Of a stretch of 64,000 nt of DNA, positions 2,898 to 22,862 are shown in pieces. Source of the DNA: Viridibacillus arenosi (lineage in GTDB: Bacteria; Bacillota; Bacilli; Bacillales_A; Planococcaceae). How positions within the stretch are numbered: the first letter of the stretch is position 1; each line of letters opens with the position of its first letter. The translations under genes were made by a program, and so were the position numbers. The stretch is taken from positions 310,001-374,000 of the forward strand of contig NZ_MSPW01000001.1 in assembly GCF_001955655.1 (NCBI RefSeq), in the 5' to 3' direction. Below the pieces are notes generated by a model. It saw nothing but the letters and a program-made list of their open reading frames with translations, did not search any database and was not told where the DNA came from.

Positions 2898-3297
2898 GAA
2901 AGTTCAATAAGCCATGTTTTGTGCCCGAGTACTCAAACGATTTACATCTCGTACAACCGGGTAGTAATCATCTATCTACGTGAGATGCAAGCATTCACGT
3001 CTCTCCATCCATTCATTTCCTTCAGGAGAGTGCCCCTACCATAATTTGGGTTTCTCACTCGTGGGGTTTACCTCGTTCCACCTGTTACGTTTCCGCACCA
3101 GCTTCGTCACTGTGGCACTTTCAGAGAGTTTCAACCATATCCTATAAAAGACTTAGGTTTTCCTCCCGCCGTCAGCCAAAAGACTGCCTTAGCTTATTTA
3201 TTCACTAAGCACGAACACTACGGTCATCTCAGAACCGTGCGAGCATGGACTTTCCTCGACAATGTCAAGCATTGCAGCGATTACCCGAAAATTCATG
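2898..3297 (-). ncRNA. rnpB: RNase P RNA (type B)
   Basis: The catalytic RNA of RNase P, which removes 5' leaders from tRNA precursors. The minus strand shows the conserved 5' part (CGGGTAATCGCTGC, then GAGGAAAGTCCATGCTCGCA), the internal conserved ACAGTGACGAAG, the AAACCCAAATT segment and the 3' segment with AAACATGGCTTA, in the same order and spacing as B. subtilis type B rnpB. Length about 400 nt matches. Ends are estimated from alignment to the remembered B. subtilis RNA and may be off by several bases. It lies between gpsB and the GGDEF/EAL gene, in the syntenic position known from bacilli. Confidence 0.95.
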
Positions 3298-19580: not shown

Positions 19581-19964
19581 TTACATAACTGTCGCTTCTG
19601 GTTCATATTGGATGAGTTCTTTTATCGTATTACCCTGCTGCATAATTGCTACAGTTGGTTTATGATTTTTCGCTTCTTCGTCATTAACATAGGCATAAGA
19701 CATAATAATGACGACATCACCTTTTTGCACTAGACGAGCTGCCGCCCCATTTACACAAATAACACCGCTACCGCGCTCTCCAGCAATAATATATGTCTCA
19801 AAACGTGCGCCATTATTATTATCAACAACATGTACTTTTTCATTTTGTAGCATACCAACTGCATCGAGTAAATCCTCATCAATGGTAATGCTACCTATAT
19901 AATTTAAGTCCGCTTGCGTAACAACCGCACGATGGATTTTCGCATTCATCATCATTCTAAGCAT
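19581..19964 (-). CDS. panD: Aspartate 1-decarboxylase (pyruvoyl enzyme)
   Basis: A 127-aa proenzyme that self-cleaves at the Gly-Ser bond in NYIGSITID (about residues 24-25) to create the pyruvoyl cofactor; it makes beta-alanine from aspartate for pantothenate. Conserved [11 protein letters not shown] and [14 protein letters not shown] are present. Two adjacent ATGs follow the panC stop; the one at 19962-19964 gives the N-terminal spacing known from B. subtilis PanD. Last gene of panB-panC-panD. Confidence 0.95.
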
Positions 19965-19967
19965 CAT

Positions 19968-20819
19968 TTATTCCCCTTTTTCTTGAAAAATAATATTGTC
20001 GATTAGGCGCGTGTTACTAAAGTAAACCGCTGTCGCAAGTAAAACTTTTTTAGTTTGCTCTGTCACTTCAGTAAGATCTGGATAACTTAGCATTTGCAAA
20101 TAATCAATTTGACCATTTGAATTGGCTTCAATATACTCTTTTGCAAGATTTGTTGCCTCAATATTATTATCAGATTCGAAATAATGGTTTTTAGCAAGAA
20201 TCAACGCTTGATGAATTACTACCGCTACTTTACGTTGTTGTTCCGTTAAAAATACATTTCGGGAGCTTTTCGCTAGACCATCTTCTTCTCGAACAATTGG
20301 CACACTTCTAATTTCTAAAGGAAAATTAAAGTCACGCACCAAAGTTTCGATAAGCGCTAGCTGTTGTGCATCTTTTTGTCCAAAATAAGCCTTTGTTGGC
20401 TGAGTTATGTGGAAAAGTTTTGTCACAATTTTTAATACCCCATCGAAATGTCCAGGTCTTGTTGCACCACAAAGAATTTTAGATTGTGGACCAGCCAATA
20501 TTTGAATACCACCATTATTCGGGTACATTTCACTGGCAGAAGGAGCGAATAAAAAGTCAACGCCTACTTTTTCTGCAATCTTCGAATCACGATTTAAATC
20601 TCTTGGATAACTTTCATAATCTTCGTTGGGTCCAAATTGCGCAGGATTGACGAAAAGGCTCATGACAACAATGTCATTTTCTTTACGTGCAGCCGTTGCT
20701 AGTGCCATATGACCTTCATGTAAATAGCCCATTGTCGGAACGAGACCGATTGTTTTATCAGCTTTTTTTGCTGTAGTAATGTGTGCAGTTAATTCTTTGA
20801 TAGTTGAAACGATTTTCAT
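19968..20819 (-). CDS. panC: Pantoate--beta-alanine ligase (pantothenate synthetase)
   Basis: A 283-aa ATP-dependent ligase of the nucleotidyltransferase superfamily joining pantoate and beta-alanine. Motifs: [12 protein letters not shown] (HxGH-type, about residues 27-38), [20 protein letters not shown] and the KMSKS-like AKSSRN. Its start overlaps the panB stop by 4 bp, so panBC are translationally coupled. Confidence 0.96.
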
Positions 20820-21655
20820 TTTCTTATGCCTCCGTATAGCTGTTCAAGTTGCTGATCTGTCATCGTGAAGCGATGCTCTACTTTTGGAAAAGAACCTTGC
20901 TTAACTGCTTTTGTATAACTTTCGATACCTTTTAACATCAATTCTCCTGCGGGTGCAAACTTTTCAACAAATTTCGGCACATGGTGGGTTCCATATGCAA
21001 GAACATCATGGTAAACGAGTACTTGTCCATCAACATCTGCTCCCGCTCCTATTCCTATTACGGGGATTTTAAGTGCCTTTGTAATCTCTGCTGCTAGCTG
21101 ATATGGAATACATTCAAGAACAAGCGCACATGCTCCTGCCTCTTCGACTTTTTTTGCATCTTGCAATAATTTTTCTGCAGCAACGGCTGTTTTTCCCTGC
21201 ACTTTATACCCCCCAAGAACTGCCGCAGATTGTGGTAGTAAACCTAAATGTGCTACTACTGGAATCCCCGTATTTACTAAAGAGGATATGACATTGACAA
21301 CAGTCTCTGCCCCTTCGACTTTTAAGGCACTAGCACCTGTCTGTTGGAACATATGAATCGCAGTTTGCAGTGTTTGGTCAATACTTCCGTGATATGAACC
21401 AAACGGCATATCAACTACGATAAAAGAATCCTTTGCTCCTCTTTTTACAGCTTTTGCATGATGGACCATATCTGCGACTGTCACAGGAACAGTTGAATCG
21501 TAGCCAAGCACGACCATACCAAGGGAATCACCTACTAATATCATATCTACTCCAGCTTCTTCAGCTAGTCTTGCAGATGGGTAATCATATGCAGTAAGCA
21601 TAACAATTTTGTCGCTTTGTTCTTTCATTTTCAAAAAATGAGTCGTTGTTTTCAA
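20816..21655 (-). CDS. panB: 3-methyl-2-oxobutanoate hydroxymethyltransferase
   Basis: A 279-aa TIM-barrel enzyme making ketopantoate with 5,10-methylene-THF. Visible: [30 protein letters not shown] (metal/substrate site), [14 protein letters not shown] and [14 protein letters not shown]. The start is a TTG at 21653-21655 with a very strong SD GAGGAGGAAGC. First gene of panBCD. An intrinsic terminator hairpin ends about 27 nt before the start, which implies control by attenuation or read-through. Confidence 0.96.
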
Positions 21656-21681
21656 AACGCTTCCTCCTCTTTTTAGGAAGA

Positions 21682-21760
21682 AAACAAAAAACCCCTCTGT
21701 CTAAAAATGGACAGAAGGGTTGCGTATTCATTGAATTGCATCGTTTTCTTCCGTCCCTGT
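21682..21760 (-). promoter_or_regulatory. panBCD leader: terminator with a mutually exclusive upstream helix (pan-motif candidate)
   Basis: Terminator: AACCCTTCTGTC / GACAGAGGGGTT stem (21690-21721) and a T-rich tail ending at about 21682. The segment GGACGGAAG (21748-21756) can pair over 9 bp, with one G-U, with CTTCTGTCC (21709-21717), which is most of the 5' arm of the terminator. The two folds exclude one another, the layout of an attenuator. A conserved pan RNA motif is known upstream of panB/panD operons in Firmicutes; whether this leader belongs to it cannot be decided by eye. The same hairpin could simply terminate birA, but it leaves almost no space for a panB promoter. Confidence 0.6.
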
Positions 21761-21878
21761 CTATTACTAGATCAAGGCGAATCTCTTTAGTTATAATTTT
21801 TATAGCGAGGTACAGTTCAATCAAATTGATACTGTCCTATATTTCAACTATAACAAGTTTGTCGATACATTCCAATCT

Positions 21879-22862
21879 TTATTTTTCGAGTGTAATATCA
21901 GCCGAATAGATACCTTTTATCGTGCCATCATCTAATTGCAATTGTAAAACACCATCATTTGTTATTCCGATGGCTTTACCAATGAATACTTCTTGCAAGG
22001 TTGTTGCTCGAATACGATTTCCAATAGTACAAGAAAAACTTTCCCATTGAGACTTAATCGGTTCAAAACCTTCTTTTATATATTGTGAACTGTAAATTTC
22101 TAAGTAATAAAGTATTTTAGCAACTAAAGTTGCACGATCTATATGTTTGCCACTAGCTATTTTAAGGGATGTTGCGATGTCTTTTATTTCTCCTTCGAAA
22201 TCATTTGGTTGATGATTTACGTTTATACCGATTCCCATAATAATTGCATTTACGCGGTCAGGATCTGCTTGTAATTCTGTTAAAATCCCAGTACATTTCT
22301 TACCATCTATCAATAAATCATTTGGCCATTTAATTTCTGGTTGTACACCTGTCATGTCAGCTATAGCTTTAGTCAATGCCACTGCAGCTACTAAAGTAAA
22401 TTGAGGTGCTTCATAAGGAGCTATCTCTGGTCGAAGGATGACACTCATCCAAATCCCTTTACCTTTCATCGACTTCCATTCACGCATCATACGGCCACGG
22501 CCCGCTGTCTGCTCCTCGCAAATGATAACAGTACCTTCTGGCGCTCCTTCTTGTGCTTTATTATGTGCAATTGCTTGCGTAGAAGTCATTGACTGTTCAT
22601 ATATAATACGGCTGCCGAATTTTTTCGTTTCAAGAGCCATTGAAATATTCGCATCATCGACTGTATCAGGCGTTGCCGTTAAAACATAGCCTCTTTTCTT
22701 TACAGTTTCAAAGGCATATCCCTTTTCCTGAAGTTGCTTCATATGCTTCCAAATTGCCGTCCTAGAGATGCCAAATTCATCTGCTAGCTGTTGTCCGGAA
22801 ATTGGTTCTCCATTAGCCTCAACTAGTCGCTTAATAATTTCATTTTTCAGTGTTGCTTTCAT
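21879..22862 (-). CDS. birA: Bifunctional biotin operon repressor / biotin--protein ligase
   Basis: A 327-aa protein with an N-terminal winged HTH (SGQQLADEFGISRTAIWKHM, about 22-41), a central ligase domain with the biotinyl-AMP site GRGRMMREW (about 120) and KWPNDLL, and a C-terminal SH3-like domain. It biotinylates carboxylases and, given the HTH, likely represses biotin genes. Position next to cca and panB matches B. subtilis. Confidence 0.95.
   Translation of the reverse strand: MKATLKNEIIKRLVEANGEPISGQQLADEFGISRTAIWKHMKQLQEKGYAFETVKKRGYVLTATPDTVDDANISMALETKKFGSRIIYEQSMTSTQAIAHNKAQEGAPEGTVIICEEQTAGRGRMMREWKSMKGKGIWMSVILRPEIAPYEAPQFTLVAAVALTKAIADMTGVQPEIKWPNDLLIDGKKCTGILTELQADPDRVNAIIMGIGINVNHQPNDFEGEIKDIATSLKIASGKHIDRATLVAKILYYLEIYSSQYIKEGFEPIKSQWESFSCTIGNRIRATTLQEVFIGKAIGITNDGVLQLQLDDGTIKGIYSADITLEK

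Follow-up and report, generated by a model that had tools for sequence, protein, structure and literature searches.

Coenzyme A is made from pantothenate (vitamin B5), which is also sold commercially as a vitamin. In Viridibacillus arenosi the genes for its synthesis follow a 223-nt interval, and the question raised by this locus is whether and how that interval governs their expression. The window, which here means the whole stretch of 64,000 nucleotides that was analysed, contains the following genes around it.

21879–22862, minus strand: birA, the gene upstream of the leader (TIGR00121, 221.9 bits, cut-off 83.1)
20816–21655, minus strand: panB, with a TTG start (TIGR00222 equivalog, 352.2 bits, cut-off 207.55)
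19968–20819, minus strand: panC (TIGR00018 equivalog, score above the cut-off)
19581–19967, minus strand: panD (TIGR00223 equivalog, score above the cut-off)

Viridibacillus is placed in the Caryophanaceae, Caryophanales, in the NCBI taxonomy, and the PanB of the window is 95% identical to that of V. arvi and 89% identical to that of V. soli. The birA-panB interval, on the minus strand, holds a pan leader; panB lies 184 nt downstream and is followed by panC and panD. Elsewhere in the window an RNase P RNA of class B (RF00011) lies at 2903–3292 (minus), with 312.7 bits.

A preliminary description of this DNA had considered the leader either a member of the pan RNA motif or a divergent version of it, and had pointed to an Rfam covariance-model search as the way to decide. 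The search yielded a full-length match to RF01749 ('pan') at 21747–21838 (minus), scoring 59.4 bits against a gathering score of 36.2 and covering model positions 1–92 of 92 with no broken pairs. It is the sole pan match in the whole genome. The tandem stems that define RF01749, each with two bulged A residues, are both present. The Viridibacillus panB leader is a regular member of the pan family, and the divergent variant is ruled out by a full-length match well above the cut-off. Rfam matches in the leader to the PyrG leader, the L10 leader, RybB, RsaF and U6atac all fell far below their gathering scores and were rejected.

21808–21838, minus strand: pan hairpin 1 (RF01749; 96.7% of cells paired and 6 of 10 pairs changed on both sides in 45 aligned leaders)
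21751–21780, minus strand: pan hairpin 2, its 3' strand ending ...CAGGGACGG (RF01749; 96.6% of cells paired in 45 leaders, with 7 of 11 pairs invariant)

In its section on the motif, the paper of Weinberg et al. (2010; PMC2864571) gives the stems, the tandem arrangement and the gene context of pan, and suggests a dimeric protein as the binder. The Viridibacillus leader shares the tandem stems with two bulged A residues and the position upstream of panB, panC and panD. An expression platform is not given in the text of that paper on pan, although its supplementary files may annotate terminators. A transcriptome study of 2017 (PMC5670726) has an entry for pan before panB-panC in Paenibacillus riograndensis, and no functional study of pan was found among open-licence PMC papers.

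A pan match was present in 250 of 261 genomes of the window's own family, in 72 of 121 genomes sampled from the class (nine of them from the own family) and in 65 of 149 sampled from the phylum. From 164 oriented pan loci of the class, 161 leaders were analysed: 102 from the own family (91 genomes, 16 genera) and 59 from 25 other families. Two of the three loci dropped had no usable gene (L059, at a contig end, and L103, with no panB or panC match), and in the third, L100, a gene for a DUF2520 protein precedes panB. Of the 250 matching family genomes, 91 supplied these 102 leaders, a non-random set composed of the best-scoring matches and a spread of weaker ones.

The genes behind pan vary at some loci. 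In one genus (g13) panB is split from panCD, and all 11 genomes examined have two pan leaders, one in the birA-panC interval and one upstream of the lone panB. Eleven genomes of the own family lack a pan match; six of these also lack a PanB match, and the other five, all of genus g7, have panB. Within g7 (G021–G028; L188–L192), five of eight genomes thus have panB without a pan leader and three of eight have no PanB match. This genus represents a natural loss of the pan leader, which could help in finding a dedicated pan-binding protein. At L205 (from 1501 on, oriented to the pan match), pan precedes a protein of the bile-acid:sodium-symporter family, with panC further on. The 211-aa piece of the symporter matches the PanS model NF047939 with an E value of 1.8e-51 and 175.6 bits, below the cut-off of 400; at this locus pan may also control the uptake of pantothenate or pantoate. 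At L214, pan with a terminator stands before two small membrane proteins, with a TTGACA-17-TATAAT-like promoter in between. The first is BioY-like by eye, with no NCBIfam match, and the second has a weak match, below cut-off, to a folate-type ECF S component. Pan also precedes birA (L198), a 78-aa ORF that has CxxC pairs and matched no family (L211), and, at a contig end, a protein resembling amidohydrolases (L225). At L100 (486–1394, minus), pan is followed by the DUF2520 protein (Pfam PF10728, E 2.1e-36), which we take to be a PanG-like ketopantoate reductase, and then by panB. Rossmann-type first genes like this one seem to follow many pan sites in other classes.

For the leader to act as an attenuator, transcription should begin upstream of its terminator, as the preliminary description had reasoned. 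A candidate promoter was found directly upstream of pan.

21847–21875, minus strand: putative promoter TTGGAA-17-TATAGT with TGT before it (extended -10), from a consensus scan (9/12 with TG)

The pattern TGnTAYART, ending 6–9 nt before pan, occurs in 80 of the 102 family leaders and in 0.7% of shuffled upstream sequences. Judging from this conserved extended -10 promoter, transcription is expected to start at about the first base of pan, which would place pan at the extreme 5' end of the RNA. A start downstream of 21690, the outcome that would have spoken against an attenuator, is therefore unlikely.

The other end of the leader contains the terminator and two segments that could form an alternative helix.

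21690–21721, minus strand: intrinsic terminator hairpin with a 12-bp stem and a loop of 8, its T run extending to 21686
21748–21756, minus strand: A1, GGACGGAAG, candidate antiterminator arm, with a 6-nt overlap with the 3' strand of pan hairpin 2 (21756–21751)
21709–21717, minus strand: T1, CTTCTGTCC, in the terminator 5' arm and the alternative partner of A1

A strong terminator had been described about 27 nt before panB. The hairpin is indeed there, the T run ending some 30 nt upstream of the TTG start codon (21655), and in a scan of 21600–22000 the site at 21721–21690 was the only terminator-like one. In 160 of 161 leaders a terminator-like hairpin separates pan from the gene, the exception being L092 (f14); the terminators of L089 and L097 were placed by hand. 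In the alignment of 45 leaders, 8 of 12 terminator pairs are changed on both sides, and hairpin 1 and the terminator together covary (15 of 33 pairs changed on both sides, against 9.1 in shuffles). The whole 223-nt leader folds at −73.7 kcal/mol, compared with −42.5 (sd 4.4) for shuffled sequences (z −7.2; 0 of 200 as good).

The 9-bp complementarity between GGACGGAAG (21756–21748) and CTTCTGTCC (21717–21709), also noted earlier, is present and includes one G-U pair. Since T1 overlaps the terminator 5' arm, A1:T1 and the terminator exclude each other. The first six bases of A1 are the end of the hairpin 2 3' strand, so no two of the sensor, antiterminator and terminator can form together. All nine A1:T1 pairs can form in 73 of the 102 family leaders, compared with 4.9% with shuffled terminator arms, and at least eight of nine in 95 of 102, compared with 35%. 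In the alignment of 45 leaders, 92.8% of A1:T1 cells are paired. The terminator arms themselves point in the same direction. Over the eight core pairs, weighted by genus, the 5' arm has an entropy of 0.28 bits and the 3' arm 0.93 bits (95% interval of the difference 0.34–0.89). The two arms of a plain terminator should be equally conserved, so the stronger conservation of the 5' arm suggests that it has a second partner. A further complementarity was seen between GGACAG in the 5' strand of pan hairpin 1 (21837–21832, minus) and CTGTCC in the terminator arm (21714–21709); this pairing appears in the minimum free energy structure of the RNA cut after T1.

One of the two tests by which the preliminary description had proposed to refute itself was covariation of the 9-bp helix in relatives, and taken literally this test went against it: within the family, the 45 leaders gave a covariation score of 0.129, compared with 0.137 in shuffles. 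One side of the helix is near-invariant pan sequence, and the null result is therefore read as uninformative. Among 58 leaders from outside the family, the own terminator arms pair with A1 no better than swapped ones (−13.4 against −13.9), and the longest A1:T1 run scores at least 6 in 69%, compared with 31% in shuffles. The earlier observation of a terminator with a 9-bp alternative helix is confirmed, and its interpretation as an attenuator-like pan leader with competing helices is partly supported, by the conservation of the terminator, of the 9-bp helix and of the terminator 5' arm.

The absence of A1:T1 covariation would fit a constitutive leader that does not switch, in which the terminator sets a fixed low level of expression and the complementarities are by-products of the purine-rich and pyrimidine-rich tracts around the Shine-Dalgarno (SD) sequence. 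A second pair of segments, missed by the preliminary description, bears on this alternative.

21743–21752, minus strand: A2, GGAAGAAAAC, an SD mimic at the 3' end of pan that pairs with B
21676–21685, minus strand: B, GTTTTCTTCC, an anti-SD arm with A2 or the SD as alternative partners
21721–21740, minus strand: TGC..ATTC..GAAT..GCA element in the interval between A2 and the terminator, unconserved

A2 has GGAAG in common with A1, and GG in common with the base of pan hairpin 2. B follows the terminator and precedes the panB SD by 8 nt. The ATTC/GAAT element with its TGC and GCA flanks exists as had been reported, but it is not a shared element: the interval that hosts it varies from 9 to 196 nt in the 102 family leaders, and a conserved element is ruled out.

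With any ten bases downstream of the terminator admitted as B, at least nine of ten canonical A2:B pairs can form in 90 of the 102 family leaders, compared with 3.0% for shuffled B, and all ten in 81 (79%), compared with 0.14% for shuffled B regions; the remaining 12 leaders fall below nine. A MAFFT alignment of 45 whole leaders put B in different registers, and A2:B was therefore counted on ungapped segments. When each A2 was paired with the B of leaders whose A2 differs, ten of ten pairs were reached in 25%, against 79% with its own B, and at least nine Watson-Crick pairs in 24%, against 62%. With G-U counted, at least nine of ten canonical pairs were reached by 88% of own and 83% of swapped arms, a gap so small that the A2:B covariation rests on the full and the Watson-Crick pairing. 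Exchanging A2 and B within a g13 genome, between its two leaders, revealed no advantage of own over swapped arms (17.2 against 17.1). B was also located by a profile trained without the leader's genus and without use of A2, and at least nine pairs were then found in 84 of 102 leaders; among 47 distinct combinations, one of 20,000 permutations was as good. Changes on both sides of the helix occur at column 4 (A-U to G-C), column 9 (A-U to C-G) and column 5. Over 32 distinct rows, the covariation score was 0.280, compared with 0.240 in shuffles and exceeded in 3 of 500, and the number of doubly changed cells was exceeded in 4 of 500. Two of the five measures, the number of pairs and the number of pair types, did not rise above shuffles in these rows.

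The pairing is specific to the start of panB. At least nine of ten A2 pairs are found before panB in 57 of 69 loci and before panC in 0 of the same 69. Among the window's 57 other ORF starts (ORFs called mechanically), A2 reaches nine pairs at one and ten at none. Swapped arms that still pair fairly well are consistent with a constitutive leader, but the rarity of full pairing with shuffled B regions, the compensatory changes with their permutation result and the panC starts all argue against it, and such a leader is considered very improbable.

B, if it is not taken by A2, is predicted to pair with the SD, which makes A2 a mimic of the SD.

21659–21685, minus strand: predicted B:SD hairpin over the panB SD (GGAGG, 21667–21663)

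The segment from B to the start codon folds at −9.9 kcal/mol in the window. The same value was obtained for the 30 nt upstream of panB, and the best of the 57 other ORF starts of the window reached −6.7 kcal/mol. The SD test in the family was made on 79 leaders that have A2:B pairing and a B no further than 30 nt from the start, 11 leaders with B more than 30 nt away being excluded. Their median for the B-to-start segment is −8.9 kcal/mol, compared with −3.0 for shuffled sequences, and in 75 of 79 the mean probability that the SD is bound to B exceeds 0.5. The evidence for A2:B and the SD-hiding hairpin is stronger than that for A1:T1.

The placement of B is less uniform than its pairing. B ends 14–27 nt before the start codon in 75 of 90 leaders. 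The gap between terminator and B exceeds 15 nt in 13 leaders, and in these B lies 15–24 nt (seven leaders) or 62–87 nt (six leaders) from the start. In five more leaders, B is near the terminator yet 31–232 nt from the start. Beyond the family, 11 of 59 leaders showed A:B pairing at p <= 0.05, where about 3 were expected (f11, f14, f19, f29, f33, f37, f38), and 20 of 59 did so under other limits and with 60 shuffles; in 48 of the 59, no recognisable B arm was found. Eight leaders of f14, f29, f33, f37 and f38 have an A2:B helix of 14–16 bp (p <= 0.035) followed by an SD-hiding hairpin. One of the f14 leaders, L092, has both structures and lacks the terminator.

This distribution leaves room for a rival account in which only transcription attenuation is regulated. 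A2:B would then act passively, as a basal helix closing the leader in read-through RNA either to stabilise it or to leave the SD unobstructed, and B:SD would be minor or an effect of folding only. The 48 outside leaders with a terminator but no recognisable B arm would be explained, as would the family leaders with a remote B (62–87 nt from the start codon in six, 232 nt in one). Such an account is nevertheless rather unlikely, given that 75 of 79 leaders have the SD paired to B, that panB is unique among the window's 58 ORF starts in both its A2 pairing and the strength of its hairpin, and that L092 retains A2:B and the SD hairpin without a terminator.

The two states of the leader are close in predicted energy. 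The state energies are equilibrium values that leave cotranscriptional folding aside. The full window leader has −58.7 kcal/mol with A2:B formed (SD not bound by B) and −57.4 kcal/mol with hairpin 2 closed (SD bound by B). Across 71 family leaders the median difference is 1.9 kcal/mol in favour of the closed state, with 48 of 71 within 3 kcal/mol, and in 53 of 71 the closed state has four or more of the six SD bases covered by B. With the two states so near each other, either could be the liganded one, and an effector that binds the open form or makes it more stable, and thereby switches panBCD on, has to be considered. That direction appears decidedly improbable, since what is conserved in the leader is the closed tandem hairpin, the form that an effector would be expected to recognise and one that is incompatible with the antiterminator.

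The preferred reading is a pan leader with a double expression platform, acting on both transcription and translation, in which the effector-bound state is OFF at both levels; we assign it a probability of roughly 60%. The pan match, the conserved competing helices, the A2:B covariation, the predicted B:SD hairpin and the conserved promoter pattern were established by comparison of sequences, and from them we infer a working switch, its direction, its effector and the order of events. RNA polymerase would start directly upstream of pan. An effector, either a small molecule or a dimeric protein (the latter as suggested in the pan section of Weinberg et al., PMC2864571), would keep hairpin 2 closed. 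With its 3' strand occupied, A1:T1 could not form and the terminator would stop transcription. If hairpin 2 were open, A1 would capture T1 and the polymerase would read through. Because A1:T1 and A2:B are incompatible, the model assumes that the terminator hairpin reforms in the read-through RNA; A2 would then pair with B and the real SD would be free. In RNA that leaked past the terminator with hairpin 2 closed, B would pair with the SD and translation would be blocked. A leader that is OFF twice in the bound state fits feedback control of pantothenate synthesis.

A comparable two-level arrangement is found in the trp leader of Bacillus subtilis. According to the parts of PMC4347634 that concern this leader, bound TRAP blocks the antiterminator, which allows the terminator to form, and transcripts that read through refold over a long distance in a way that conceals the SD. 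Common to both leaders are an antiterminator and a terminator that exclude each other and an alternative fold concealing the first gene's SD, here as predicted structures. TRAP binds 9–11 NAG repeats in that account, whereas the Viridibacillus leader has seven GAG/UAG triplets in 186 nt together with a pan RNA. The likeness is one of a system that would work in a similar way, and no homology is claimed. Riboswitches with a transcriptional or a translational platform likewise have mutually exclusive sensor, antiterminator, terminator and SD-hiding helices; the pan leader differs in that both outputs would be combined in a single leader. To pan as described in the text of PMC2864571, this leader adds an antiterminator (A1:T1), the A2:B helix and a hairpin that hides the SD.

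Finally, a general scheme for the Caryophanaceae and at least five other families of Bacilli is, on balance, favoured. In this scheme one segment of pan would have three mutually exclusive uses, as a sensor strand, as an antiterminator and as an SD mimic, in an OFF switch with two checkpoints, and in L092 (f14) only the translational half seems to operate. Natural variants are on offer, including leaders without a terminator, leaders without a B arm, the duplicated leaders of g13 and the panB of g7 without pan. The proposed platform is concrete: it predicts a direction, points to bases for mutation, and provides a terminator and an SD hairpin that could be read out in a search for the effector. 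If the reading of three uses is true, the orphan pan family would gain a predicted direction, in which an occupied pan means OFF.
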